DNA of 64,000 bases from Actinophytocola xinjiangensis (GTDB lineage Bacteria; Actinomycetota; Actinomycetes; Mycobacteriales; Pseudonocardiaceae): the NCBI RefSeq assembly GCF_001921215.1, contig NZ_MSIF01000025.1, forward strand, positions 1-64,000, given 5' to 3'. Below are positions 23,484 through 44,093 of this stretch, piece after piece (the stretch's first letter is position 1; each line of letters opens with the position of its first letter). Both the position numbers and the translations under genes were made by a program. The notes beneath the pieces are model-generated. The model searched no databases and was not told the DNA's origin. It saw only the letters and a list, made by a program, of their open reading frames with translations.

Positions 23484-26400
23484 GTGGGCGGGACGTCCCA
23501 AACGGATGATCGAGGCGTGGAGAACTCTCGGGAAGACCCGCGCGACGCGATAGCCATCATCGGAATGGGGTGTCGGCTGCCCGGTGGGGTGAACTCGCCG
23601 GAGGCGTTCTGGAACGCGTTGGTCGACGGGCTGGACGCGATCGGCGAGGTGCCGGCCGACCGTTGGGCCCACTACCGCGACGCCAGCCAGGACAACGCCG
23701 CCGCGCTGCGCCGCACGACCGGGCTCGGCGGCTTCGTGTCCGAGGTGGACGGGTTCGACGCGGCCTTCTTCGGGATCTCGCCGCGCGAGGCGGCGCTGAT
23801 GGACCCGCAGCAGCGGATGGCGCTGGAGGTCAGCTGGGAGGCCCTGGAACACGCGGGCATCGTTCCCGGCGCCCTGGCCGGCACCGACACCGGTGTGTTC
23901 GTCGGGGTCAACACCGACGACCACGGGCGGCGGCTGCTGGAGGACCTGCCGCGCATCGAGGCGTGGACGGGCATCGGCTCGTCGATGTGCGCGGTCGCCA
24001 ACCGGGTCTCCTACACCCTCGACCTGCGCGGGCCCAGCCTCGTCGTGGACACGGCGTGCTCGTCGTCGCTGGTGGCGCTGCACCTGGCGTGCCAGAGCCT
24101 GCGGCTGGGCGAGACGCCGGTGGCCATCGCCGGCGGGGTGATGCTGATGCTCGCCCCCGGCCTGACCATGGTCATGGACGCCGCTGGCGCGCTGGCCCCC
24201 GACGGGCGCTCCAAGTCCTTCGACGCGTCGGCCGACGGGTACGGGCGCGGCGAGGGCTGCGGCATGGTCGTGCTCAAACGCCTGGCCGACGCCCGGCGCG
24301 ACGGCGACCGGGTGCTGGCCGTGGTCCGGGGCAGCGCCGTCAACCAGGACGGGCGCACCAACGGCATCATGGCCCCCAGCCGCGAGGCCCAGGAACACAT
24401 GCTGCGCCAGGCCTGCACCCAGGCGGGTGTCACGCCAGAGTCGGTCGACTACGTCGAGGCGCACGGCACCGGCACCCGCGCCGGTGACCCGATCGAGGCC
24501 GGCGCCATCGCCTCGGTCTACGGCGTTGGCCGGCCCGCCGACCGGCCGTGTCTGATCGGCTCGGTGAAGTCCAACATCGGGCACCTGGAGGCGGCGTCGG
24601 GCATCGCCGGCGTGATCAAGGCCGTGTTGGCCATCGAGCACGCCGCCATCCCGCCCAGCCTCAACCTGACCACCCCCAACCCGGACATCCCCTGGCAGGA
24701 CTCCGGGCTGCGGGTGGTCACCGAGCTGACCCGCTGGCCCAGCACCGGCGGGCCGCGCCGCGCCGGGGTGTCCGGCTACGGCTACGGCGGCACGATCGCC
24801 CACCTGGTCCTCGAACAGGCGCCCGGCGCGCGGGCCGTGCCGGCGCCGGACCGGGGGACGGCGCTGCGGGTGTACCCGTTGTCCGGCAACACGGTCGAGG
24901 CCGTGCGGGACTACGCGGCCACGCTGGCCGACCGGCTCACCGCCGACGCCGCGCTGGAACTGGCCGACGTCGCGCACACCCTGGCCGACCGGCGCGCGCA
25001 CCTGACCCACCGCGGCGCCGTGCTGGCCGCCGGCCGCGACGAACTGGTCGCGCGGCTGCGGCAGATCCCGTTGGGTGAGCCGCGTGACGGGCTGGTCACC
25101 GGGCAGGTGCTGGACGGGGCGCGGCGCGGCGCGGTGTGGGTGTTCTCCGGGCACGGGTCGCAGTGGATCGGCATGGGCCGTGAGCTGCTGGGCACCGAGC
25201 CGGAGTTCGGTGCGGTGCTCGACGAGCTGGAGCCGATCTGCCTGGCCGAGCTGGGGGTCTCGCCGCGCCGGGCGCTGCTGGAGGGCGACCTGCTGCACAC
25301 CGACCGCATCCAGCTGTTGATCTTCGCCATGCAGGTGGGGCTGGCCAGGGTGCTGACCGCGCGCGGCCTGGCCCCGGCGGCGGTGCTCGGCCACTCGGTC
25401 GGCGAGATCGCGGCGGCGGTCGTCGGCGGGGTGCTGGACCTGGCCGACGGCGCCCGGCTGATCTGCCGGCGTTCGGCGCTGCTGCGCCGGGTCGCCGGGC
25501 AGGGCGCGATGGCCATGGTGAACCTGCCGTTCGCCGAGGTCCGCGCCCGACTGTCCGATGTGGACGGCGTGGGGGCGGCGATCGCGGCGGCGCCGTCGTC
25601 GACGGTCGTCGCCGGGGACGTCGCCGAGCTGGAGGTGGTGGTCAAGGAGTGGACCGCCGCCGGGCTGCACGTGCAGCGGGTCAACTCCGACGTGGCCTTC
25701 CACAGCCACCACATGGACCCGCTGGTCGGCGACCTCGCCGAGGCCGTCGCCGACCTCGCACCGCGCGCCGGTGCGGTGCCGGTGTACTCGACGTCGCTGG
25801 AGGACCCGCGCGGGCGCGACGTGCGCGACGGCGCCTACTGGGCCGGCAACCTGCGCAACCCGGTGCGCTTCGCCGGCGCCGTGTCGGCGGCGCTGGCCGA
25901 CGGGTACCGCGCGTTCGTCGAGATCGCGCCGCACCCGGTGGTGTCGTACTCGATCAACGAGGTGCTCGCCGCCGAGGGCGTCACCGACGCGGTCGTCGCG
26001 CACACGCTGCGCCGCAACCGGCCAGAACAGGCGTCGCTGCTGACCAACCTGGCCGCGCTGCACTGCCACGGCGTGCCGGTCGACTTCTCCGGCCAGGGCG
26101 GCGGGCTGGTGGAGCTGCCGGTGATCGCCTGGCGCCACCGCGCCCACCGGGTCGACCAGCGGGCCAGTGCGACAGTCCACTCCCGACTGCACGACGTGGA
26201 CGGTCACACGCTGCTCGGCGCGCCGCTGACCGTGCACGGCACCTCGGCCGTGCGGCTGTGGCAGACCTGGCTCGACCTGGACAGCCGGCCCTACCCCGGC
26301 GACCACCCGGTGCAGGGCACCGAGATCGTGCCGGCGGCGGTGCTGCTCACCACGTTCCTCGCCGCCGCCGGCGGGCACGCGCTGGCCGACGTGTCGCTGC

Positions 26401-28709
26401 GGGTGCCGGTGTCCCCGGCCCTGGCCCGCGAACTCCAGGTCGTGCAGATGGACGGCACGCTGCGGCTGTGCTCGCGACTGGGCGCCGAACGGGACTCCGA
26501 GCCGGACGCCGGCTGGCTGACCCACACCACCGCCGTCGTGCCGCCGGTCGCCGAGACCCCGGGCGCCGAAACCCTGCCGCTGGCGCGACTGCGCGACCGC
26601 TGCACCGAACGGCTGGACCCCAACTACGTGATCGACCGGCTGGCCTCCCTCGGCGTGGCCGCCATGGGCTTCCCGTGGCGCGTCGAACGGATCCGGCGCG
26701 GCGCCGGGGAGCTGTTCGTGCGGGTGCTCGCCGACCCGGACGACACCCTGCCGCCGACCTGGGCGTCCATTCTGGACGCGGCACTGTCGGCGGCGTCGGT
26801 GGTGTTCGACGGCCAGGCGACGCTGCGGATGCCGGCGGCCATCCGGCGGGTCACCGTCGGCGGCCACCCGCCGGCCGAGGCGGTGATCAGCGTGCGGGTG
26901 CGGCCCGGGTCGGCCGACACCGTCGACGTCACCGTCGCCAGCCCCGACGGCACCGTCGTGGCCACCCTCACCGGCCTGCGCTACGGCGTGCTCGACGGCG
27001 ACATCGGCGCCCCGGCCAGCCCCCGCCGGCTCGTGCACCACGTCGAATGGCGGCCCTACGAGCTGCCCAGCCGCCCGCGCGGAGCCCTGGAGGGCGTGGT
27101 GTTCGTCGGCGACGCCGGCCTGGCCGCGCGCCTGGGCGACTCCTTCGCCGACGCCGGTGTGCCGTGGGAGTCGGTCGCCGATCCGTCCACCCTGGAGGAG
27201 TTACGTCCCGGTCAGGGCACCGCCGTGCTGGTCGCCGCGCCGGCCGGCACCGACGCCGCCGCCGCGACCTGGCTGCTGACCAGGACCGCCCAGGTCCTCG
27301 CCGGCTGGGACACGGCCCCCACGCTGTGGTGTCTGACCCGGGGCGTGCGTGAGGCGGCGAGCCTGGACGCGGTCGCCGAGTCGGCGCTGTGGGGCGCGGG
27401 GCGCGTGCTGGGCGGGGAGTACCCGGCGTTCTGGGGCGGGATCGTCGACCTGTCGGCCACCGACCCGGTCGGCTCCGCCGGCCTGCTGCGGCTGCTGCTC
27501 ACCGCCCGCCCCGCCGAGGACGTGCTCAGCCTGCGGCACGCCGACCTGGCCGTGGCCCGGCTCGCGCCCGTCGACGGCGCCCCCACCCGCCCGCCGCTGA
27601 CCTGCCACCCCGGCGGCACCTACCTGGTCACCGGCGGCCTGGGCGTACTGGGCCTGGAGGTCGCCGGCTGGCTCGCCGGGCGCGGCGCGCGCCGGCTGGT
27701 GCTCGCCGGGCGCCAGGCACTGCCGCCGCGCACCGAGTGGGACCGGGCCACCGACCCCGACCTGGTACGGCGGATCGAGGGTGTGCGCGCGTTGGAGGCC
27801 GCCGGGGTCACCGTCGCCACGCTCGCCCTGGACGTCGCCGACCCGGCCCAAGCCGCCCGCGAACTGTCCGCCGCGACCCTGGGCCTGCCGAGGATCCGGG
27901 GGGTCGTGCACGCCGCCGGGGTGCTGGACAACCGGCTGGCCGGCGAGGTGGACCACGCGTCGCTGGAGCGGGTGCTGGCCCCCAAGGCCGGCGGCGCGCT
28001 GGTGCTCCACGAGCTGTTCCCGCCCGGCAGCCTGGAGTTCCTGGTGCTGTTCTCCTCCGCCGGCCAGCTGCTCGGGCTGCCCGGCCAGACCTCCTACGCC
28101 GCCGCGAACGCCGTGCTCGACGGCCTGGCCAGGCACCGGGGCGACGCGCTGAGCCTGGCCTGGACGTCCTGGCGCGGCCTGGGCATGTCGACCTCGTCGG
28201 CGGCGATCGACGCCGAACTGGCCGCGCGCGGCACCGGCGACATCACCGCCGAGGAGGCGTTCCGGGCGTGGGAGTACGCGCAGCGGCAGCCGGTCGACCA
28301 CGTCGCCGTGCTGCGCACCGTGCCGACGCTGCCCGGGATGCGCCGCCCGCCGCTGCTCGCCGAGCTGACCGCCGACCAGGCGCCCGCGCCGGCCACCACC
28401 GGCACCCCGTGGGCCGGGCTGCGCGACGGCGAGCTGCGCGAGTACCTGGCCGGCGAGGTCGCCGCCCAGGTCGCGGCGGAGCTGAAACTGGCCGTCGACG
28501 AGCTGGACGTGCGCCGCCCGCTGATCGAGATGGGACTGGACTCGGTGATGACCCAGCTCATCCGGGGGCGGCTGGAACGCCAGTTCCGGGTCAGCCTGCC
28601 GGCGACCCTGCTGTGGAACTCACCGACCGTGCGGGCGATCAGCGACTTCCTCGCCGAGCTGCTCGCCGGCGAGAGCCTGATGGGAGAGGACAGGACCAAT
28701 GCAGCGTGA
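23484..28709 (+). CDS. iterative type I aromatic polyketide synthase (KS-AT-DH-KR-ACP)
   Basis: About 1741 residues, a single module. KS: catalytic Cys near 192 in DTACSSSLVAL, then EAHGTGTRAGD and SNIGHLEAASG. AT: GHSVGEIAA (Ser near 638) with a VAFHSHH motif, favouring malonyl-CoA. DH/product-hydrolase fold: HPVQGTEIVP (His near 941) in the PypGdHPvqG context typical of 6-methylsalicylate-type synthases. KR: TGGLGVLG near 1382 with SYAAANAV. ACP: GLDSVM, Ser near 1687. No thioesterase. Size and order match bacterial 6-methylsalicylate and naphthoate synthases (ChlB1, NcsB class). The start is uncertain: GTG 23484 or GTG 23517. The 3' end overlaps the ligase by 11 bases. Confidence 0.92.
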   Translation: MGGTSQTDDRGVENSREDPRDAIAIIGMGCRLPGGVNSPEAFWNALVDGLDAIGEVPADRWAHYRDASQDNAAALRRTTGLGGFVSEVDGFDAAFFGISPREAALMDPQQRMALEVSWEALEHAGIVPGALAGTDTGVFVGVNTDDHGRRLLEDLPRIEAWTGIGSSMCAVANRVSYTLDLRGPSLVVDTACSSSLVALHLACQSLRLGETPVAIAGGVMLMLAPGLTMVMDAAGALAPDGRSKSFDASADGYGRGEGCGMVVLKRLADARRDGDRVLAVVRGSAVNQDGRTNGIMAPSREAQEHMLRQACTQAGVTPESVDYVEAHGTGTRAGDPIEAGAIASVYGVGRPADRPCLIGSVKSNIGHLEAASGIAGVIKAVLAIEHAAIPPSLNLTTPNPDIPWQDSGLRVVTELTRWPSTGGPRRAGVSGYGYGGTIAHLVLEQAPGARAVPAPDRGTALRVYPLSGNTVEAVRDYAATLADRLTADAALELADVAHTLADRRAHLTHRGAVLAAGRDELVARLRQIPLGEPRDGLVTGQVLDGARRGAVWVFSGHGSQWIGMGRELLGTEPEFGAVLDELEPICLAELGVSPRRALLEGDLLHTDRIQLLIFAMQVGLARVLTARGLAPAAVLGHSVGEIAAAVVGGVLDLADGARLICRRSALLRRVAGQGAMAMVNLPFAEVRARLSDVDGVGAAIAAAPSSTVVAGDVAELEVVVKEWTAAGLHVQRVNSDVAFHSHHMDPLVGDLAEAVADLAPRAGAVPVYSTSLEDPRGRDVRDGAYWAGNLRNPVRFAGAVSAALADGYRAFVEIAPHPVVSYSINEVLAAEGVTDAVVAHTLRRNRPEQASLLTNLAALHCHGVPVDFSGQGGGLVELPVIAWRHRAHRVDQRASATVHSRLHDVDGHTLLGAPLTVHGTSAVRLWQTWLDLDSRPYPGDHPVQGTEIVPAAVLLTTFLAAAGGHALADVSLRVPVSPALARELQVVQMDGTLRLCSRLGAERDSEPDAGWLTHTTAVVPPVAETPGAETLPLARLRDRCTERLDPNYVIDRLASLGVAAMGFPWRVERIRRGAGELFVRVLADPDDTLPPTWASILDAALSAASVVFDGQATLRMPAAIRRVTVGGHPPAEAVISVRVRPGSADTVDVTVASPDGTVVATLTGLRYGVLDGDIGAPASPRRLVHHVEWRPYELPSRPRGALEGVVFVGDAGLAARLGDSFADAGVPWESVADPSTLEELRPGQGTAVLVAAPAGTDAAAATWLLTRTAQVLAGWDTAPTLWCLTRGVREAASLDAVAESALWGAGRVLGGEYPAFWGGIVDLSATDPVGSAGLLRLLLTARPAEDVLSLRHADLAVARLAPVDGAPTRPPLTCHPGGTYLVTGGLGVLGLEVAGWLAGRGARRLVLAGRQALPPRTEWDRATDPDLVRRIEGVRALEAAGVTVATLALDVADPAQAARELSAATLGLPRIRGVVHAAGVLDNRLAGEVDHASLERVLAPKAGGALVLHELFPPGSLEFLVLFSSAGQLLGLPGQTSYAAANAVLDGLARHRGDALSLAWTSWRGLGMSTSSAAIDAELAARGTGDITAEEAFRAWEYAQRQPVDHVAVLRTVPTLPGMRRPPLLAELTADQAPAPATTGTPWAGLRDGELREYLAGEVAAQVAAELKLAVDELDVRRPLIEMGLDSVMTQLIRGRLERQFRVSLPATLLWNSPTVRAISDFLAELLAGESLMGEDRTNAA

Positions 28710-30354
28710 CGGATTCACCCCGTGGCCGGCCGAGTTCGTCGAGCGGTACACCTCGGCGGGCTACTGGCGCGGCAAGCCACTGGGCCACTGGCTGTGGAGC
28801 TGGGCCGACGAGCGGGGCGAGCGTGTGGCCATCGTCGACGGCGAGTACGCGATCACCTACCAGGACCTGGCCGAGCACGCCGACGCGCTGGCCGACAACC
28901 TGCTCGACCTGGGCCTGCGCGAGGGCGACAACATCCTGGTGCAGCTGCCCAACACCTGGGAGTTCGTGGCGTTGTTCCTGGCGTGCCAACGGATCGGCGT
29001 CGCGCCGGTGCTGGCACTGCTGGCCCACCGCGAGCACGAACTGAACTACCTGGCCGACCTCGCGCACGTGCGGGCGATCGTCGTGCCGGACACCTGGCAG
29101 CGGTTCGACCACCAGCGGCTGGCCGGTGACCTGGCCGAGTCCCTCGGCCGCCCGTGCGAGGTCCTGGTCCTCGGCGAGCACGTCGACGAGTCCCATGTGG
29201 ACCTGCGGACGCTGCTGGAACGCGGCCAGGAACCGACCCGGCTGCGGGCCCGGCTCGACGCCCAGGCCCCCGACCCCGGCGAGATCGCCCTGTTCCTGCT
29301 CTCCGGCGGCACCACCGGAACCCCGAAGATCATCAGCCGCACCCACCAGGACTACGAGTACAACGCGCGGCAGTCCGGCGCGGTCTGCGGCTTCGACGAG
29401 TCGACCGTGTACCTGGTGACCCTCCCCATGGGACACAACTTCCCGCTCGGCTCGCCGGGGATCCTCGCCACCCTCATCCACGGCGGCCGGGTCGTGATGA
29501 TCCGGTCCCCCAAACCCGAGGTCGCCTTCCCGGCGATCGAACGCGAACGCGCCACGGTCACGTCGCTGGTGCCGGCCATCGCCCAACGCTGGGTCGAGGC
29601 CGCCGCCACGACCACCCACGACCTGTCGTCGCTGGACCTGGTGCAGGTCGGCGGCTCGGTCATCGACCCGGCGTTCGCCGCCCGCATCGGCCCCGCCCTG
29701 GGCTGCACCCTCCAGCAGGTGTACGGCATGGCCGAGGGCCTGCTGAACTACACCCGCCCGCACGACCCGGTCTCGGTCACCAACCACACCCAGGGCCGCC
29801 CGATCAGCGAGGCCGACGAGATCCTCATCGTCGACGAGGACGGCCGCCCGGTGCCCTTCGGCGGCACCGGCGAGCTGCTCACCCGGGGCCCGTACACGCC
29901 GCGCGGCTACTTCCGGGCGCCCGACCACAACGCCCGCGCCTACACCCCCGACGGCTGGTACCGCACCGGTGACCTGGTGCGATGGCACCGCAACGGCAAC
30001 TTCGTCGTCGAGGGCCGGGTGAAGGACCTGATCAACCGGGGCGGCGAGAAGATCTCCGCGCCCGAGGTCGAGGCGGTCGTCGACCTGCTGCCGGCGGTGC
30101 GCCGCGTGTCGGCCATCGCCCTGCCCGACCCCGAGTACGGCGAACTGGTCTGCGTCTGCGTCGTCCTCCACGAGGACTACTCCCTGACACTGGACGAGGT
30201 CCGGGCACTGTTCGCCGCCCAGGGTGTGGCGAAGTTCAAACACCCCCAGCAACTGGAGATCGTCACCGACTTCCCGCTCACCGCCGTCGGCAAGGTCGAC
30301 AAGAAGGCCCTGCGCCAGGACATCCTCGCCCGGGGCGAGAGCCGGGCGGCCTAG
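28699..30354 (+). CDS. aryl-acid adenylating enzyme / aryl-CoA ligase (EntE/DhbE/NcsB2-like)
   Basis: A 551-residue ANL enzyme. Core motifs are SGGTTGTPK (about 202-210), YGMAEG, GWYRTGDLV, GRVKDLINRGGEKISAPEVE and the C-terminal GKVDKK with catalytic Lys near 532. PMGHNFPLGSPG contains the His-Asn pair seen in DhbE-type 2-hydroxybenzoate-activating enzymes, where Asn contacts the acid. It starts inside the PKS gene (11-base overlap), so it almost surely activates the PKS product, as NcsB2 does in neocarzinostatin. Whether it makes a CoA ester or loads a carrier protein cannot be told; no free carrier protein is in the window. Confidence 0.9.
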   Translation: MQRDGFTPWPAEFVERYTSAGYWRGKPLGHWLWSWADERGERVAIVDGEYAITYQDLAEHADALADNLLDLGLREGDNILVQLPNTWEFVALFLACQRIGVAPVLALLAHREHELNYLADLAHVRAIVVPDTWQRFDHQRLAGDLAESLGRPCEVLVLGEHVDESHVDLRTLLERGQEPTRLRARLDAQAPDPGEIALFLLSGGTTGTPKIISRTHQDYEYNARQSGAVCGFDESTVYLVTLPMGHNFPLGSPGILATLIHGGRVVMIRSPKPEVAFPAIERERATVTSLVPAIAQRWVEAAATTTHDLSSLDLVQVGGSVIDPAFAARIGPALGCTLQQVYGMAEGLLNYTRPHDPVSVTNHTQGRPISEADEILIVDEDGRPVPFGGTGELLTRGPYTPRGYFRAPDHNARAYTPDGWYRTGDLVRWHRNGNFVVEGRVKDLINRGGEKISAPEVEAVVDLLPAVRRVSAIALPDPEYGELVCVCVVLHEDYSLTLDEVRALFAAQGVAKFKHPQQLEIVTDFPLTAVGKVDKKALRQDILARGESRAA

Positions 30355-30422
30355 CGACCCGCCGCCCGGACCGGCACGAAAACGGGGCGGCGCCTGTCGG
30401 TGCAGGTCAGTAGCATCGGGCC

Positions 30423-31079
30423 GTGTCCTACCTCGCCTCAGTGAACGTCGGTGTCCCCCGGACCAACCCGGCGAAGCCCGCCGGCACCACCGGCATCGAC
30501 AAGCGCCCGGTGTCCGGTCCGGTCGCCGTCACCGCCCCCGGTCCGAAAGGGACGGGGGCGGTCGGCCTGGCCGGCGACCGGGTCTACGACATCGCCGACC
30601 ACGGCGGCGACGACCAGGCCGTGTACGCCTACGCCCGCGAGGCCCTCGACGGCTGGTCCACCCGCCTCGGCCGCCCCCTGGCCGACGGCGTCTTCGGCGA
30701 GAACCTCACGACCGTCGGCCTCGACGTCGACGGCGCACTGATCGGCGAGCGCTGGCGGATCGGGCCGGACCTGCTGCTGGAGGTGTCCTGCCCGCGCATC
30801 CCGTGCAGCACCTTCCAGAGCTGGATGGCCGAACCTGACTGGACGAAGACGTTCATGGCGGCGGCCGAACCGGGCGCCTACCTGCGCGTCCTCGAACCCG
30901 GCGAGATCCGCGCGGGCGACCCGGTCACGGTCACGCACCGGCCCGCGCACGACGTGACCGTCGCCCTGGCCTTCCGCGCCATGACCCTCCAGCCCGACCT
31001 GCTGCCCCGCCTCGTCGTCGCCGACGCCCTCCCCGCCGACGACCTCGCCAAGATCCACCGCCGCCTCGGCAACGCGTAA
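30423..31079 (+). CDS. MOSC-domain protein (YiiM-like)
   Basis: A 218-residue protein with the MOSC core: DHGGDDQAVYAYAREALDGWSTRLGRPL, FGENLTTVGLDVDGALIGERWRIG and the conserved Cys segment VSCPRIPCSTF. MOSC proteins handle molybdenum-cofactor sulfur or reduce N-hydroxylated compounds (YiiM). The GTG start is 68 bases after the ligase stop. It ends four bases from the converging XRE-deformylase gene. A link to the PKS product is possible but not shown. Confidence 0.85.
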   Translation: MSYLASVNVGVPRTNPAKPAGTTGIDKRPVSGPVAVTAPGPKGTGAVGLAGDRVYDIADHGGDDQAVYAYAREALDGWSTRLGRPLADGVFGENLTTVGLDVDGALIGERWRIGPDLLLEVSCPRIPCSTFQSWMAEPDWTKTFMAAAEPGAYLRVLEPGEIRAGDPVTVTHRPAHDVTVALAFRAMTLQPDLLPRLVVADALPADDLAKIHRRLGNA

Positions 31080-31082
31080 GGC

Positions 31083-32558
31083 CTAGTACTTCCAGCTTGT
31101 TCCACTGCCGCGATACTGTTCGACCGGGATGGGCTCGACCCCCTCGCGCATCCGATCGGTGTAGAGGCAGCCGTGCAGGTGATCGACCTCGTGCGCGACC
31201 AGCCGAGCTGTCCCGCGCTCGAACACGGTGATCATCGGATCACCATCGATGGTGGTGTGCTCGACCTGGATGACGTGCGAACGTGGCACCTGACCACGTA
31301 CGTCGAAGAATGACAGGCAGCCCTCGTACTGCTCGTCGATCTCGCCGCCGTGTTCGACAACGCTCGGGTTGAACAGGGTGAGTACCTCACCCTCCGGAGT
31401 CCGTACGATCGCGGCGGCCCGGTCGATGCCGATCTGGGGGGCCGCCACACCCATACCCTTGCCAAAGGTGTGGACCCGCGCGACCCGTTGCGCCGCCGAG
31501 GCCAGCGCGGCCACGACCCGCCGGGCCTCATCGGCCTCAGCCGGAAGATCGAACTGGCGGGCCACCCGCCGCAACCGATCATCATCTGCCTGGACGATCC
31601 CGAGCCCAGCCATGACCTCACTCGGGGTGGGTGCGGGTCCGTGGGCAGCGCGGCCACGGAAATCCCATTCGAGCCGGTAACGAGCGTGTAGTGAAGGGTC
31701 CTCACACGACCACGAGAAGATGTGTCGGTCGCTGCTCACGTCGCGAGCGATGGCGGTGGCGAACGGGACCGCCTGCGAGGTCATCGAGGTGTACAAGCCC
31801 CATACGGAAGTGGTGAGTTCCGCCGGGAAGTTCAGAACCACCGACAGCGTCCGGGTCGGCAGTCGAACCGCGCGCTGGAACCAGTTCCCCCAATGAACCT
31901 CACTCACCGTGTACTCGTACTCGATCCAGCAGGATTCCCCGGGATACAGAGGAAAATGGCCGTGTTCGCCGGAGAAGAGCAGCCAGATCTCCTTGAAGGC
32001 GTCGCGATCATGGTGGACGGTCCACCTCATCGGGTTCGTGCGATCGGGTCCGTGCCAGGCCCGCAGACCGATCTCGTCCCAGGTGAGTGGGGTCTCGCTG
32101 TAAAGCTGGTTCGAGCGCTCCGGATCGCCCGGGAAACGGTCGACGGAGATACGGACGAGATAACGACTGATCGGCTCGCCGCTGTTGTTGACCAGATGGC
32201 GCCGCTGGGTGAGCCGATAGACCCCGTCCTGGTAGTGCAATGTCGCGTCGTCGTGGTTGACGACCAGACTTCCGGTCCCGCCCTTCTCCCCGAGGTCATT
32301 CGGCACAGGTGACCGGCTGTGGACGGGACGTGCGTGGTCGCGGAACGCGGCACGCAGGGCCCCGCCGGTACGCAACGCCTTCTCGGCCTGCATCGCGAAG
32401 GCCTCTGACGGCCGTTCGGTTCCGGACTCGACCTTGGACACGTACGAGCGGTCATAACCCATCGCCTTGGCAAGGGTGGTTCGGGAGTGGCCCCGTACGT
32501 CCCGCCATCGTTTGAGCTCGATGGCGAACCCGTTGACCTCTGCGTCCGCCGGATCCAT
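31083..32558 (-). CDS. XRE helix-turn-helix / peptide deformylase fusion
   Basis: About 491 residues in three parts. Residues 10-65 are an XRE HTH (ELKRWRDVRGHSRTTLAKAMGYDRSYVSKVESG). Residues about 95-310 are an uncharacterised beta-rich domain (RRHLVNNSGEPISRYLVRISVDRFPGD... GNWFQRAVRLP). Residues about 340-491 are a peptide deformylase with all three metal/catalytic motifs: GMGVAAPQ (368), EGCLS (412) and HEVDH (456). The enzyme therefore looks active. Deformylases remove formyl from N-terminal Met; coupling to a DNA-binding and a sensor-like domain is unusual. The ATG at 32558 is preferred over an upstream M because it fits the HTH. It is divergent from a methyltransferase gene. Confidence 0.88.
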   Translation of the reverse strand: MDPADAEVNGFAIELKRWRDVRGHSRTTLAKAMGYDRSYVSKVESGTERPSEAFAMQAEKALRTGGALRAAFRDHARPVHSRSPVPNDLGEKGGTGSLVVNHDDATLHYQDGVYRLTQRRHLVNNSGEPISRYLVRISVDRFPGDPERSNQLYSETPLTWDEIGLRAWHGPDRTNPMRWTVHHDRDAFKEIWLLFSGEHGHFPLYPGESCWIEYEYTVSEVHWGNWFQRAVRLPTRTLSVVLNFPAELTTSVWGLYTSMTSQAVPFATAIARDVSSDRHIFSWSCEDPSLHARYRLEWDFRGRAAHGPAPTPSEVMAGLGIVQADDDRLRRVARQFDLPAEADEARRVVAALASAAQRVARVHTFGKGMGVAAPQIGIDRAAAIVRTPEGEVLTLFNPSVVEHGGEIDEQYEGCLSFFDVRGQVPRSHVIQVEHTTIDGDPMITVFERGTARLVAHEVDHLHGCLYTDRMREGVEPIPVEQYRGSGTSWKY

Positions 32559-32588
32559 TGCCAACCCCCACCACTTCAAACTGTGAGT

Positions 32589-32612
32589 GTGCGTGAACGC
32601 ACCGTGAGTCAC
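32589..32612. promoter_or_regulatory. palindromic operator candidates between the XRE-PDF and methyltransferase genes
   Basis: GTGCGT-ga-ACGCAC (32589-32602) is followed at once by GTGAGTCAC (32604-32612), itself symmetric about its centre. Both sit in the 133-base divergent gap, about 31-54 bases upstream of the XRE-PDF start. They are plausible binding sites for the XRE domain of the neighbouring gene. TTGACG (32639) and TTGACT (32650) further right could be -35 elements. Confidence 0.45.
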
Positions 32613-32691
32613 TGCTCAGTCTAGCCACCGTCCCACGGTTGACGTCTCCTTGACTTCTCCCGACACCAACGAGTCCGCGCCGAGGAGAGCA

Positions 32692-34134
32692 ATGATGAGC
32701 GTCCAGGCCCTCGCCACCGACTCCGGCCCAGCCGGATCACGGAACTTCGTCCATGAGCACAAATCCGACCCCGGCTACCTGGACAACGCCGCGAACACGC
32801 ACGGATCAGAGAAAGCCTCCCTGGTGTGGCGTGCCCTGGGGCGTGTGGGGCGCGACCGACAACGGATGGTCGAGGTCGGCCCAGGTGGAGGGGCAGCGGT
32901 CGCTCACCTGGCCGCACAGTTCGCCAACTCTGGAGACAGAGGGCCTTCCCAGACGCCTGGCCCTCAGCTGACCCTGATAGAGGCACCCGGGGTGACCTCA
33001 CAGTCGCTGGTTCGGGCCATCGAGGAGTTCAACAGGATTGGTGAATGCGAGCTACGCCATGGGCTGGCTCGGGACCTCGGCACGCTGCTCACCGAGCCGG
33101 TGGACGTGATCGGCGCGTCCGCCCTGATGCACGAGGTGTACTCCTATGGCGGCGGATACGCCGGGTTGCACGCCATGATGCGAACCTTGCCCACGGTGCT
33201 GAAATCCGGTGGGTTCTTCGCCTACCGGGACGTATTCGCGGTGGACGGACCGTCGCTGCACGACCGGGTCGTCCAGTCGTACCACTCGCGGGCCTGGTTG
33301 ACCTTCCTTCGACTGTTCACGCCGCTGTACCTCGCGGAGGGTACACACCCCTATCACCGCGCGGACGACGAGCTGGTGGCCCACCAGCACTCCCGGATCG
33401 TGCCGGTGGCGGAACTGGACCGAGAGGCCTGTGCGGTGATCACGGCGCCGGTCGGGCTGTTCCGCGAGATCCAACGTCACTATGTCACCTTCCGCGATCA
33501 CGTGTGGCGCTCCGGAATCCTGGGTTTCACTCCCGTACTGGACGGTGAGCTGGCTGCGGACTGGATCGACTTCCACACCGGCCACAAACGGGTGCACTAC
33601 CGGCTCGGCGGCGAGGTGCGCTGGCTGACCGCCCACCAGCGGAGGATGCTGGCCGCGATGAGCGAGCCCTACACCGACCACCAGACCATCGACAGTGACA
33701 TCGCCGACGCGGTGACCGATGTTGCCCTGCTGGCGTTTCTGGACGCCGCGGAGTCCGGCGACGCCACCTGCCGACAGGTGTGGGACAGCTGGCTGGCGCG
33801 CGAAGGTCGAGAAACCTACGCCTATCTGACCGCCGACCAACTGATCACCGCGTTCGCGGTGTGTTCGGCGCAAGCAGGTACCGGTACGGTCCTGATGCCT
33901 GTCCTGGCCGGGGACATCACCCGTGTCGACCGGCGCTACTACAACCGGTTCCTGACCAGACGGCTGGCCAACCCGTTGCCCGACGCGAAGCTGCTCGTGT
34001 TGTTCCAGAACGTGCCGTGCGCTGACGAGACCACCCTGCGCCGGGCGTTCGACACCGTTGCCAGCTGCTGTGGCAAGTCGAGCCTGGCCCGGATGTACAC
34101 GGCAATCAACAAGGGAGACAACGGGGCGTCATGA
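32692..34134 (+). CDS. class I SAM-dependent methyltransferase-like protein with unknown C-terminal domain
   Basis: About 480 residues. The N-terminal half has the SAM motif VEVGPGGG (about 60-67), the acidic end LTLIEAPG, and MHEVYSYGGGYAGLHAMMRTLPTVLKSGGFFAYRDVF at the post-motif region. The C-terminal 200 residues (for example WRSGILGFTPVLDGELAADWIDFHTGHKRVHYRLGGEVRWLT) match nothing I recognise. The ATG at 32692 or 32695 is chosen from the ribosome site GAGGAGAG; an upstream TTG is less likely. It is coupled to the CYTH gene by an ATGA overlap. The substrate is unknown. Confidence 0.75.
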   Translation: MMSVQALATDSGPAGSRNFVHEHKSDPGYLDNAANTHGSEKASLVWRALGRVGRDRQRMVEVGPGGGAAVAHLAAQFANSGDRGPSQTPGPQLTLIEAPGVTSQSLVRAIEEFNRIGECELRHGLARDLGTLLTEPVDVIGASALMHEVYSYGGGYAGLHAMMRTLPTVLKSGGFFAYRDVFAVDGPSLHDRVVQSYHSRAWLTFLRLFTPLYLAEGTHPYHRADDELVAHQHSRIVPVAELDREACAVITAPVGLFREIQRHYVTFRDHVWRSGILGFTPVLDGELAADWIDFHTGHKRVHYRLGGEVRWLTAHQRRMLAAMSEPYTDHQTIDSDIADAVTDVALLAFLDAAESGDATCRQVWDSWLAREGRETYAYLTADQLITAFAVCSAQAGTGTVLMPVLAGDITRVDRRYYNRFLTRRLANPLPDAKLLVLFQNVPCADETTLRRAFDTVASCCGKSSLARMYTAINKGDNGAS

Positions 34135-34700
34135 GCGTGATCGAGGTGGAGCGCAAGCGGGAGCTGGGCGACGTCGTGGCCCTGCGGACACGCCTGGCCG
34201 ACACCGGTTTCCGCGAGGTGGGTACGAGCGTCGAGGTCGACACCTACTACAGCCGCCCGGATGTCGACTTCCTGGCCACTGTGGAGTGTTTGCGTGTTCG
34301 ACGGAGTGACGAGTTCGCGGAGATCACCTACAAACCGCCCTCCGACGCCGTCACGCACTCGGCGGCGGGCGTCATCGCCAAACCCGAGACCACCGTGGTC
34401 CTGTCCTCGCCGAGCCAGGCCACCGCCGCCGACACCCTGTTGGACGTGTTGGGCATGGTGGCGCTGTGCACGGTCGAGAAGTCCCGCACCTCCTTTCGTC
34501 ACCCTGACCACGACGACGTCACCGTGGCCATCGACCTGGTCACCGGCGTCGGTCCGTTCGTGGAGACCGAGGTGATGGCACACGATCCGGCGGTGGCGAC
34601 CCTGTTGTTGGACGAGGTGGAACGGCAACTCGGCCTGACCGCTTGCCCGGTGGTCCGGCTGCCCTACCGCGACCTGATTCTGCACCGGACCACGGCGTAA
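34131..34700 (+). CDS. CYTH-domain protein (class IV adenylate cyclase / thiamine-triphosphatase-like)
   Basis: A 189-residue CYTH domain. It begins with the signature E-x-E-x-K (Glu5, Glu7, Lys9 in IEVERK), followed by VDTYYSRPDVDFLATVECLRVRR, EITYKPP, VEKSRTSFRHP and VAIDLVTGVGPFVETEV, which provide the inner-tunnel acidic and basic residues. The family binds triphosphates: it makes cAMP (CyaB), hydrolyses thiamine triphosphate or cleaves tripolyphosphate. Translationally coupled to the methyltransferase. The product cannot be chosen from sequence. Confidence 0.85.
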   Translation: MSVIEVERKRELGDVVALRTRLADTGFREVGTSVEVDTYYSRPDVDFLATVECLRVRRSDEFAEITYKPPSDAVTHSAAGVIAKPETTVVLSSPSQATAADTLLDVLGMVALCTVEKSRTSFRHPDHDDVTVAIDLVTGVGPFVETEVMAHDPAVATLLLDEVERQLGLTACPVVRLPYRDLILHRTTA

Positions 34701-34742: not shown

Positions 34743-35603
34743 CTACTTGCCGACGACCTCGCGCAGTTCCTTGAGTTGGTCCAGCGAGGACCCGCACGGT
34801 GCGAGCACGACCTCGTCGCAGCCGATGTCGCGCAGGCGCGTCAGGGTCTCGGTCAGTTTCGCCTCGCCGACGGCGGCGTTGCGGGCCACCAGTTGGGCGT
34901 AGGGCGGGGCGAAACCGTAGTAGTCGTTGAGGTAGCCGTCGGCCAGTTCGCGCGCCGACGAGCCGAGCGCGAAGTAGGTCAGCGACACGATCCTCGGTGA
35001 CCCCTCGCGGCCGGCCTCCCGCCACGCCGCCCGCAGCGCGTGCACGCCGCCGGTGAACATGTCGACGCCGCCGCCGCCGGAGATCCAGCCGTCGGCCACC
35101 CGCGCGGTCCTGGCCAGGGCGGCCGGTGAGTGGCCGCCCATCAGGATCGGCGGCGGCGAGGCCACGGTCGGGCCGATGCCGCCGGCGAAGCCCCGGCGAG
35201 CTCCCGACCAGATCTCCCGCAGCTCCGCGACCTGCGCCTCGACCCGCCGCCCGCGCCCGGCCATCGGCACCCCGCTGGCGCGGAAGTCGTCCGGGCGGGC
35301 ACCGGCGGCGACCCCGAGGACCAGCCGGCCGCCGGACAACCTGTCCACGGTGGCCGCCTGCTTGGCCAGCAGCGCGGTGTTGGCCTGCAACGGCGAGATC
35401 ATGATCGTCGTCGCCAGCCTGGCCCGTTCGGTGACCGCCGCCGCGGCGGCCAGGGTCGTCAGGCAGTCGTAGTTGTCGTAGACCAGCCGGTCGAGCGTGG
35501 CCAGGCTGGAGAACCCGGCCCGGTCGGCCTCCCTGGCCCACTCCAGCACCGTGTCGCCCGCGACGTCGCGGATGACGCTGGGCAGGCCGACGCCGATCTC
35601 CAT
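34743..35603 (-). CDS. LLM-family (luciferase-like) F420/FMN-dependent oxidoreductase
   Basis: A 286-residue TIM-barrel flavoenzyme: EIGVGLPSVIRDVAGDTVLEWAREADRAGFSSLATLDRLVYDNYD, RARLATTIMISPLQANTALLAKQAATVDRLSGGRLVLGVAAGARPDDF and PPPILMGGHSPAALARTARVADGWISG. This pattern marks the actinobacterial F420-type group; the cofactor is not certain. It is the last gene of a minus-strand tailoring operon; its ATG overlaps the stop of the SchA/CurD gene (TGATG). A redox step on an aromatic or quinone intermediate is the likely role. Confidence 0.85.
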   Translation of the reverse strand: MEIGVGLPSVIRDVAGDTVLEWAREADRAGFSSLATLDRLVYDNYDCLTTLAAAAAVTERARLATTIMISPLQANTALLAKQAATVDRLSGGRLVLGVAAGARPDDFRASGVPMAGRGRRVEAQVAELREIWSGARRGFAGGIGPTVASPPPILMGGHSPAALARTARVADGWISGGGGVDMFTGGVHALRAAWREAGREGSPRIVSLTYFALGSSARELADGYLNDYYGFAPPYAQLVARNAAVGEAKLTETLTRLRDIGCDEVVLAPCGSSLDQLKELREVVGK

Positions 35604-35986
35604 CAGGCGGCCTTCTCGCCCGCCGCCGGTGCCCGGCGGTTGAGCACGTTCTCCATGCCCGCCTTCTGGAAGAACGCCCGCGCGCCCTCCGGGGAGAGCA
35701 TGTCCCGCTCCTCGGTCAGGTGCTCCTCCAGTTGCCGCTCGAACTCCTTGACCTCGGGCTGGCGGCTCATGTGCGCGGCCACCACCGGCAGTGGGCCGTC
35801 GACCTCGATGACCCGGATGGCCGCGCCCTCGCCGACGAAGGCCATCGTCGCCAGCAGCCGGCCGACGACCGTGCCGTCCGGTGCGGTGATCTCGAACTGG
35901 GGCCGGCCGCTGGTGGCGAACAGCTTCTTGACCGCATCCTCGCTACCCCGCTTGATCGGGTAGTAGAGCGCGTGCCAGGTGGACAT
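35603..35986 (-). CDS. SchA/CurD-like domain protein
   Basis: A 127-residue protein beginning STWHALYYPIKRGSEDAVKKLF. It continues TSGRPQFEIT, VGRLLATMAFVGEGAAIRVIEVDGPLPVVAAHMSRQPEV and SPEGARAFFQKAGM. This is the SchA/CurD domain found in spore-pigment and other aromatic polyketide clusters, where it is a tailoring component of unclear chemistry. Its presence ties this operon to aromatic polyketide processing. The ATG at 35986 is preferred because the family begins at this point; upstream codons overlap its ribosome site GGAGGTAAGG. Confidence 0.85.
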   Translation of the reverse strand: MSTWHALYYPIKRGSEDAVKKLFATSGRPQFEITAPDGTVVGRLLATMAFVGEGAAIRVIEVDGPLPVVAAHMSRQPEVKEFERQLEEHLTEERDMLSPEGARAFFQKAGMENVLNRRAPAAGEKAA

Positions 35987-36008
35987 CCTTACCTCCATCA
36001 CAAGGGAC

Positions 36009-43424: not shown

Positions 43425-43463
43425 TTGACCAACGTTGACCAGGCCTGGTTGACCAAGTATCGT
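43425..43463 (+). promoter_or_regulatory. three TTGACCA repeats with promoter-like spacing (TA autoregulation site)
   Basis: TTGACCA occurs at 43425, 43435 and 43449. TTGACC at 43435 and TATCGT at 43458 are 17 bases apart, a good -35/-10 pair, which would place the transcript start after the GTG at 43462. The repeats directly precede an antitoxin gene, where autoregulatory operators usually lie. Confidence 0.5.
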
Positions 43464-43482
43464 GAAGCGTGTGGAACGGGTA

Positions 43483-43698
43483 GTGAAGGTGCAGGAAGCC
43501 AAGACGCGGTTGTCCGCGATCCTGGCCGACGTCGAGCGAGGGGAGGAGATCGTCATCGCGCGCGGGGACGTCCCCGTGGCTCGGCTGATCCCCTTTCAGG
43601 AGCCGGCGGCGCGAGAGTTGGGCTTCGTGCCCTATCGCGTTCCCGAACAGTTCGACGAGCCGCTTCCCGAGGAGGAGTTGGCGGCGTGGGAGGCATGA
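43483..43698 (+). CDS. Phd/YefM-family antitoxin
   Basis: A 71-residue protein: VKVQEAKTRLSAILADVERGEEIVIARGDVPVARLIPF is the Phd/YefM DNA-binding fold. The C-terminus is acidic (FDEPLPEEELAAWEA), as expected of a toxin-wrapping tail. The GTG at 43483 fits the family start and the putative promoter; GTG 43462 would add seven residues. The stop overlaps the toxin ATG (ATGA). Confidence 0.85.
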   Translation: MKVQEAKTRLSAILADVERGEEIVIARGDVPVARLIPFQEPAARELGFVPYRVPEQFDEPLPEEELAAWEA

Positions 43699-44093
43699 CG
43701 CCGCGCCGGCTGATGCTCGACACGCATGTGCTGCTCTGGGCCCTGACCGAGCCGGCTCGACTCTCTGAGCAGATCCGCGACCTGGTCGCTGATCGCCGCA
43801 CGGAACTGTTCGTGTCCGCGGCCTCGGCGTGGGAGATCGCGACGAAGCAACGACTGGGGAAGCTGCCGCAGGCCGACGTGCTGGTGCGCGCCTATCAGCA
43901 GCACCTTGGGCGGCTCCAGGTGGAGAGCATCCCCGTCGACGACGAACACGGCCTCCTCGCGGGATCCATGGAATGGGCGCATCGGGATCCGTTCGATCGC
44001 ATGATCGCCGCGCAGTGCATGTCCGAGTCACTGCCGCTGGCGACAGCTGACGAGGCGTTCCGCACCCTGACCGGAGTTCAGGTGCTGTGGTGA
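43695..44093 (+). CDS. PIN-domain toxin (VapC-like)
   Basis: A 132-residue PIN nuclease. Acidic residues are present at LDTHVLLW (Asp), SAASAWEIATK (Glu), HRDPFDRMIAAQ (Asp, Asp) and ATADEAF (Asp). The HVLLWAL and DPFDR wording is that of the Sll0205-like subgroup usually paired with Phd antitoxins. Such toxins cut tRNA or other RNA. All catalytic positions are intact, so the module may be functional. Confidence 0.88.
   Translation: MTPRRLMLDTHVLLWALTEPARLSEQIRDLVADRRTELFVSAASAWEIATKQRLGKLPQADVLVRAYQQHLGRLQVESIPVDDEHGLLAGSMEWAHRDPFDRMIAAQCMSESLPLATADEAFRTLTGVQVLW

Follow-up and report, generated by a model that had tools for sequence, protein, structure and literature searches.

The subject of this analysis is a gene in a 64,000-nucleotide stretch of the genome of Actinophytocola xinjiangensis (contig NZ_MSIF01000025.1, positions 1 to 64,000 of the forward strand), which is referred to as the window. 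The gene (31083..32558, minus strand) encodes a protein of 491 residues in which an XRE DNA-binding domain, a beta domain with a predicted saddle fold and a peptide deformylase (PDF) are fused; we call it XRE-PDF. Together with its relatives in actinomycetes, it appears to represent a kind of gene switch that has not been described before, spreads horizontally and may sense formylated molecules. The explanation that we favor, with a probability of about one half, is that XRE-PDF is a mobile regulator, linked to an operon and controlling its own expression, in which the aminopeptidase-like half binds an N-formyl ligand and removes its formyl group. The role as a regulator is well supported by the layout of the genes, and the ligand is one that we infer.

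Homologous loci were collected by scanning genomes with two peptide patterns. The scan returned 522 stretches. By tblastn, 496 of them encode a relative of the query, and these may include unfused deformylases because only the best 80 loci were inspected. To the best 80 scan loci, plasmid loci and the loci of relatives were added. L040 and L041 were dropped throughout, as they are the same loci as L056 and L058, and near-identical loci of sister species were retained in the counts of divergence and residue conservation.

In the window, XRE-PDF is divergent from a methyltransferase–CYTH pair (31083-32558 minus against 32692-34700 plus), as the first-pass annotation had recognized. The same orientation is seen at 76 of 91 loci, compared with 310 of 1210 (26%) for the other genes of these loci (p ~8e-31, a value that treats the loci as independent though some are close relatives). 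The count omits matches that start beyond query residue 120 or stop short of 480, as well as two loci without an upstream gene. After upstream regions with at least 20% common 12-mers were dropped (from 94 to 74), XRE-PDF was divergent in 58 of 74, and in 33 of those 58 the gap is at most 300 bases.

The genes facing XRE-PDF are diverse. At 78 loci, some of them with split or partial copies, they make up 34 operon types with no blastp cluster in common among the first five genes. Many of these operons contain biosynthetic enzymes. The facing genes include a lantibiotic-dehydratase N-terminal domain with a small protein that has a cysteine-rich end (L058), radical SAM/SPASM proteins with an arylsulfotransferase and a creatininase (L064, L031), varying combinations of QueC, QueD, QueE and FolE (L128, L036, L038), and a GDP-mannose dehydratase with ATP-grasp and a DegT aminotransferase cluster (L067). 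Ribonucleotide-reductase-like (L059), class II tRNA-synthetase-like (L072) and D-Ala ligase-like (L037) operons are also found. Opposite regulators that are 71–78% identical to the window protein (L056–L060), at least four operon types occur: the reductase-like type is common to L056 and L059, and L057, L058 and L060 each have a different one. Two side observations concern these neighbors. A WXG100-TNT domain protein, likely a secreted toxin, is among the genes facing XRE-PDF in Actinokineospora (L109:3165-5972), and a protein with a partial reverse-transcriptase match lies within the QueC/QueD/QueE run of L128 (5961-6743).

An operator-like site made of three direct TCAC repeats, at intervals of 11 and 10 bp, precedes XRE-PDF in its presumed 5′ leader (32577..32612, core 32583-32608, minus strand). 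The intergenic gap that holds it is 133 bases long (32559-32691), and palindromes had been noted there in the first-pass annotation. By eye, a short TGAG-N6-CTCA pair and a GTGCG-TTCA-CGCAC hairpin can be recognized; a repeat search found no inverted repeat of 8 bases or more in the gap, and the direct repeats are the stronger feature. Dyad counting over the 74 nonredundant upstream regions yielded 41 with GTGA-N7-GTGA, where about 1.4 would be expected. Expectation maximization gave a 36-base motif with the consensus ACTCACGGtgcgcTCACGCACACtCAC. With a matrix trained on those 74 regions, 46 score at least 15, compared with none of 740 shuffles; with 70%-identity protein clusters held out, 36 of the 74 outscored all 370 shuffles. 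All 46 high-scoring regions carry the motif on the coding strand of XRE-PDF, mostly 3–25 bases before the start codon. Regular expressions find fewer regions than the weight matrix (19 of 74 for the strict form, TCA-8-TCA-7-TCA, and 27 of 74 for a relaxed one), partly because Nocardia copies have GCAC as the third repeat. A candidate −10 element, TAGACT (32618..32623, minus strand), was assigned by eye from the aligned upstream regions because a promoter scan found no sigma-70 consensus. Similar elements lie about 10 bases ahead of the repeats in the alignment, and the repeats would thus sit at and after the transcription start.

The full motif occurs largely at XRE-PDF genes. Of 997 other genes tested in these loci (direct neighbors of XRE-PDF excluded), one has an upstream site that scores at least 15; this site, in L034, stands beside a glycosyltransferase operon and is probably separated from XRE-PDF by an insertion carrying an IS5 transposase. 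In 1.8 Mb of locus DNA, 58 of 66 matches lie directly before an XRE-PDF start on its own strand, and the other 8, which include the L034 site, lie elsewhere. The full pattern matches the 9.5 Mb genome of the window once at up to 3 mismatches. The bare TCAC pattern matches elsewhere in that genome, so that only the full motif is specific: with at most one mismatch it gives 32 matches against 7 for a reversed control, and with none it has one match besides the window (C5:242310, between two genes unrelated to XRE-PDF, with a motif score of −3.8). Among 60 relatives, 9 genomes contain the full pattern; five matches with 0–2 mismatches precede XRE-PDF genes, and four with 3 mismatches do not. The motif is present in 35 of the 58 divergent loci, and these span 21 operon types, which indicates that the site is kept while the partner changes. 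By eye, operator subtypes pair with helix-turn-helix subtypes, a pattern that shared descent also predicts.

The protein itself combines a DNA-binding and an enzymatic half. Its likely start is the ATG at 32558 (the longest open frame begins at 32612). The XRE helix-turn-helix (32343..32528, minus strand, Pfam match converted to DNA coordinates) matches HTH_31 at 1.5e-11 and 44.9 bits, above the cut-off of 27. The deformylase domain, of class I type (31143..31598, minus strand), matches Pep_deformylase (PF01327) at 1.4e-30 and 106.4 bits, above the cut-off of 22.8; NCBIfam deformylase models match below their own cut-offs. The motifs GxGxAAPQ, EGCLS and HEVDH are all found, and the metal and catalytic residues are intact. 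In an alignment of 80 full-length homologues (aligned from query residue 30 or earlier to residue 480 or later, by which the Frankia form is excluded), Q393, E430, G431, C432, H474, E475, D477 and H478 are invariant in 80 of 80, and G388 and S434 are conserved in 79 of 80. The initial description of one chain with an XRE domain, a beta domain and a deformylase with three catalytic motifs is thus borne out. The beta domain (31638..32279, minus strand) has no Pfam family at E≤1, and a profile search against the PDB returned a single, unrelated chain at E 0.44. Structure prediction gives it a fold similar to that of the M1-aminopeptidase N-terminal domain, a beta-saddle also represented by the Ost1 domain, and the predicted structure qualifies as a beta-saddle. 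No TPR match was found in XRE-PDF with Pfam at E≤1.

The PDF domains of this family form a group of their own. In a tree, 28 domains from fused or split members are parted from 31 separate deformylases by a single branch (100/99) with a long stem; one long-branch separate deformylase may distort the join. Split versions occur in L033, L039 and L049, and the two halves of XRE-PDF can therefore be separate chains. Since two further places in the genome of the window match the PDF part, the window protein is an accessory deformylase copy. The middle domain is carried by 23 of 394 genomes in a class-wide sample; 13 of these belong to one genus, g281, which may be Frankia. In a phylum-wide sample, 48 of 296 genomes match the XRE-PDF query at E≤1e-20, a tally that is not a fusion count because only three places span nearly the whole query and the remaining places match one part, mostly PDF. 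In Frankia (L114, L118, L119, L123–L125), XRE-PDF has a longer N-terminus and faces one conserved unknown protein, and the helix-turn-helix match of the one protein tested is just under the cut-off.

In the window, the first gene facing XRE-PDF encodes a class I S-adenosylmethionine methyltransferase-like protein with a family-specific C-terminal part (32692..34134, plus strand), and the second, which overlaps it by 4 bases, a CyaB-like CYTH protein (34131..34700, plus strand). The methyltransferase shows a clear GPGGG motif by eye; its only Pfam match, to Methyltransf_12 (E=0.12), is under the cut-off. A PDB sequence search with it returned nothing at E≤0.1, and a viral-contig scan found no relative. 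The CYTH protein matches PF01928 (1.4e-20, 74.3 bits) and NCBIfam cyaB (59.0 bits, cut-off 57.95), and its ExExK motif is conserved in 3 of 3 aligned sequences. The methyltransferase is rare: at E≤1e-5 it has matches in 9 genomes of a class-wide sample of 394 and in 9 of an order-wide sample of 397, several with fragments only; the genome of the window and G055 are included in both counts. We inspected 16 methyltransferase loci (the window, L052, L053, L233, L234, L246 and L271–L280), with the weak matches in G023, G693 and G762 excluded. A CYTH gene accompanies the methyltransferase or its fragment in 11 of the 16. XRE-PDF is adjacent in three, namely the window, L234 and L233, where the methyltransferase is broken. 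At two loci, L271 and L274, another XRE-type gene stands opposite the pair; one of these genes encodes 466 residues (helix-turn-helix match below the Pfam cut-off) and the other 153 residues (above it). In L052, an XRE-like frame lies upstream of the pair, beside a TPR-like frame in another reading frame. XRE-PDF therefore occupies a regulator's place, and that the pair is its target seems more likely than that it is an obligate partner. In L053, L233 and L275–L280, what is present is a broken or fragmentary methyltransferase, often with CYTH still adjoining, which suggests a costly or transient function.

XRE-PDF also appears to move between genomes. The three genes in the window have a third-position G+C content (GC3) of 79, 82 and 88%, compared with 92.8–97.6% in the four nearest genes to the left and the nine nearest to the right, which suggests a recently acquired cassette. 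Over 74 homologous loci, XRE-PDF averages 3.5 points below its neighbors and is lower in 49, so the shift is not general. Thirteen plasmid records have a place covering at least 80% of the query. In L089, L092 and L093, XRE-PDF adjoins pSAM2-like replication initiator and/or integrase genes, and it can thus ride on integrative elements. No clean empty insertion site was found among six same-genus genomes. A MOSC gene is present in two of the six, that of the window included, and the other (G003) has a different local gene order. Around the three genes, we observed a type I polyketide synthase (by eye), a dihydroxybenzoate-AMP-ligase-like enzyme and a MOSC protein at 23517-31079, and an LLM oxidoreductase and a SchA/CurD-like protein at 34743-36001; the flanking genes are possibly one polyketide cluster interrupted by the low-GC3 cassette. 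Two more low-GC3 genes (82%) lie at 43462-44093.

From these observations we propose the following mechanism. XRE-PDF would be a one-component regulator that is passed among actinomycetes along with a small operon facing it. The XRE domain would bind the helically phased TCAC repeats, which are seen between the putative promoter and the start codon of its own gene, and would thereby repress that gene and adjust the facing operon through the common divergent promoter region. The C-terminal half resembles the layout of M1 aminopeptidases, with a predicted beta-saddle followed by an HExxH metalloenzyme that is, by sequence, an intact deformylase. This layout makes an N-formylated ligand the likely signal, most simply an N-formyl peptide. 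The saddle would hold the ligand and the PDF domain would deformylate it, and binding or turnover would alter the DNA-bound state. Turnover, as opposed to metal or inhibitor sensing alone, is favored mainly by the invariant glutamate, which is needed for catalysis and not for metal binding. Sensing of a formylated ligand, also suggested in the first-pass annotation, is a fair guess. In the window, the switched operon would be the methyltransferase–CYTH pair, which may modify a small and perhaps triphosphorylated molecule; nothing links the deformylase in particular with the nucleotide or methyl mark that had been suggested earlier. A bolder version is tentative and, in our view, doubtful: XRE-PDF as an actinomycete receptor for an N-formyl-peptide or other formylated signal that switches unrelated small-molecule operons, in which the aminopeptidase-like half takes hold of the formylated N-terminus and the signal is then ended or converted by deformylation.

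Several observations weigh against the favored explanation. The beta domain, compared at the level of sequence, is without detectable similarity to M1 domains, and the full-length model has a predicted template modeling score (pTM) of 0.50, so that the arrangement of the domains is unsure. Some neighbors are not biosynthetic; 13 loci face a protein of 53–90 residues and others face mobile-element genes. The motif scores below 15 in 28 of the 74 upstream regions, and the held-out test was passed by only 8 of 25 protein clusters. L233 and L234, the other genomes with all three genes, score 14.5 and 1.1, below the threshold of 15, with repeats visible by eye. The motif is also present in 11 of 16 codirectional loci and is thus tied to the XRE-PDF gene more than to divergence. 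Its place in the regulator's own leader makes the case for self-control stronger than that for control of the facing operon.

Other roles can be proposed for the PDF domain. It could sense a deformylase inhibitor such as an actinonin-type hydroxamate, or supply a resistant deformylase, with the facing operon as the chemical response. Its intact residues and accessory status would fit, as would actinonin, a Streptomyces product that targets PDF according to PMC5719088. However, the 34 facing operon types have no evident common chemistry that would answer an inhibitor, and a sensor of this kind has no need of the catalytic glutamate; we consider it unlikely. It is rather unlikely that the Cys-His-His iron center is a metal or redox sensor in which catalysis is incidental. 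The metal ligands are invariant, and the partner proteins of L046, L131 and L135 (one cluster) end in a cysteine motif that we take to recall FhuF, the L131 member being without a Pfam family. However, the catalytic glutamate and glutamine, which are dispensable for metal binding, are equally invariant in the 80 homologues. A link to the formaldehyde response, in which def and an adenylate cyclase gene are among the mutated loci according to PMC8153426, was also considered and is only an analogy.

The gene context allows three further explanations. That XRE-PDF is cargo of mobile elements or a defense gene, with incidental neighbors, would agree with its occurrence on plasmids and beside pSAM2-like Rep and integrase genes and with its atypical GC3; it is improbable given the strong divergence and the conserved operator-like site, and PADLOC returned weak helix-turn-helix matches only. 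The dedicated system of XRE-PDF, methyltransferase and CYTH acting jointly, which the first-pass annotation had put forward, seems quite improbable. The genes stand side by side in the window, L234 and L233, and those of the window share a low GC3, but XRE-PDF faces 33 other operon types, it is not adjacent at 13 of the 16 methyltransferase loci, and other XRE-type genes are faced at two or more of these; the check for co-conservation had a mixed outcome, with all three genes together at 3 of 16. Very improbable is that the repeat acts as an RNA leader element instead of a DNA operator. Its place in the presumed leader, on the coding strand in all 46 high-scoring regions, would suit an RNA, but the 46 aligned copies show no consensus RNA structure (mean folding z 0.12, 1 of 46 below −2), and a conserved RNA leader was rejected on this ground; the spacing of 10–11 bp in the window is about one turn of DNA.

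If the favored explanation holds, the operator-like motif and its linked regulator provide a handle on dozens of small uncharacterized operons at once, some of them plasmid-borne and including ribosomal peptide (RiPP)-like, deazapurine-like, sugar and radical-SAM types. Were the deformylase the sensor, a single class of ligand could switch on these operons jointly, and an enzyme with a central role in translation would have been taken over for transcriptional sensing. The bolder version would amount to a formyl-based signaling language, read inside the cell by a trigger enzyme. No paper on an XRE-PDF fusion was found in a literature search that left subscription journals mostly outside its reach, in agreement with the earlier statement that no described system of this make-up was known; nor is the fusion described in the available parts of PMC7587189, PMC13118837 and PMC5719088. 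New here are an operon-linked one-component regulator with an enzyme-derived sensor, a combination that we did not meet in that search, and its operator-like TCAC site.

XRE-PDF can be compared with several known systems. It has the same fold as class I peptide deformylases (PF01327) and all of their catalytic and metal residues, but it is fused to a DNA-binding domain, falls in a separate tree group and is an accessory copy. Unlike M1 aminopeptidases (LTA4H, ERAP1, PepN), it has a deformylase in the position of the thermolysin-like domain, and it has no detectable sequence similarity to these proteins or to Ost1/ribophorin I. RRNPP peptide-pheromone receptors join an XRE domain to a peptide-handling half. 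XRE-PDF shares this plan, and in L052 XRE-like and TPR-like frames stand upstream of a methyltransferase–CYTH pair, but XRE-PDF lacks a TPR domain and no pheromone gene was identified. In the enzyme-derived regulators BirA, NrtR and MocR, a helix-turn-helix is fused to an enzyme domain, as in XRE-PDF; to our knowledge none of them uses a deformylase. Cluster-situated XRE regulators of actinomycete operons are divergent from their operon, with a local operator-like site and an XRE DNA-binding domain. XRE-PDF is likewise linked and divergent with a local operator-like site; it differs from them in its sensor half, which is a predicted beta-saddle joined to an intact deformylase.

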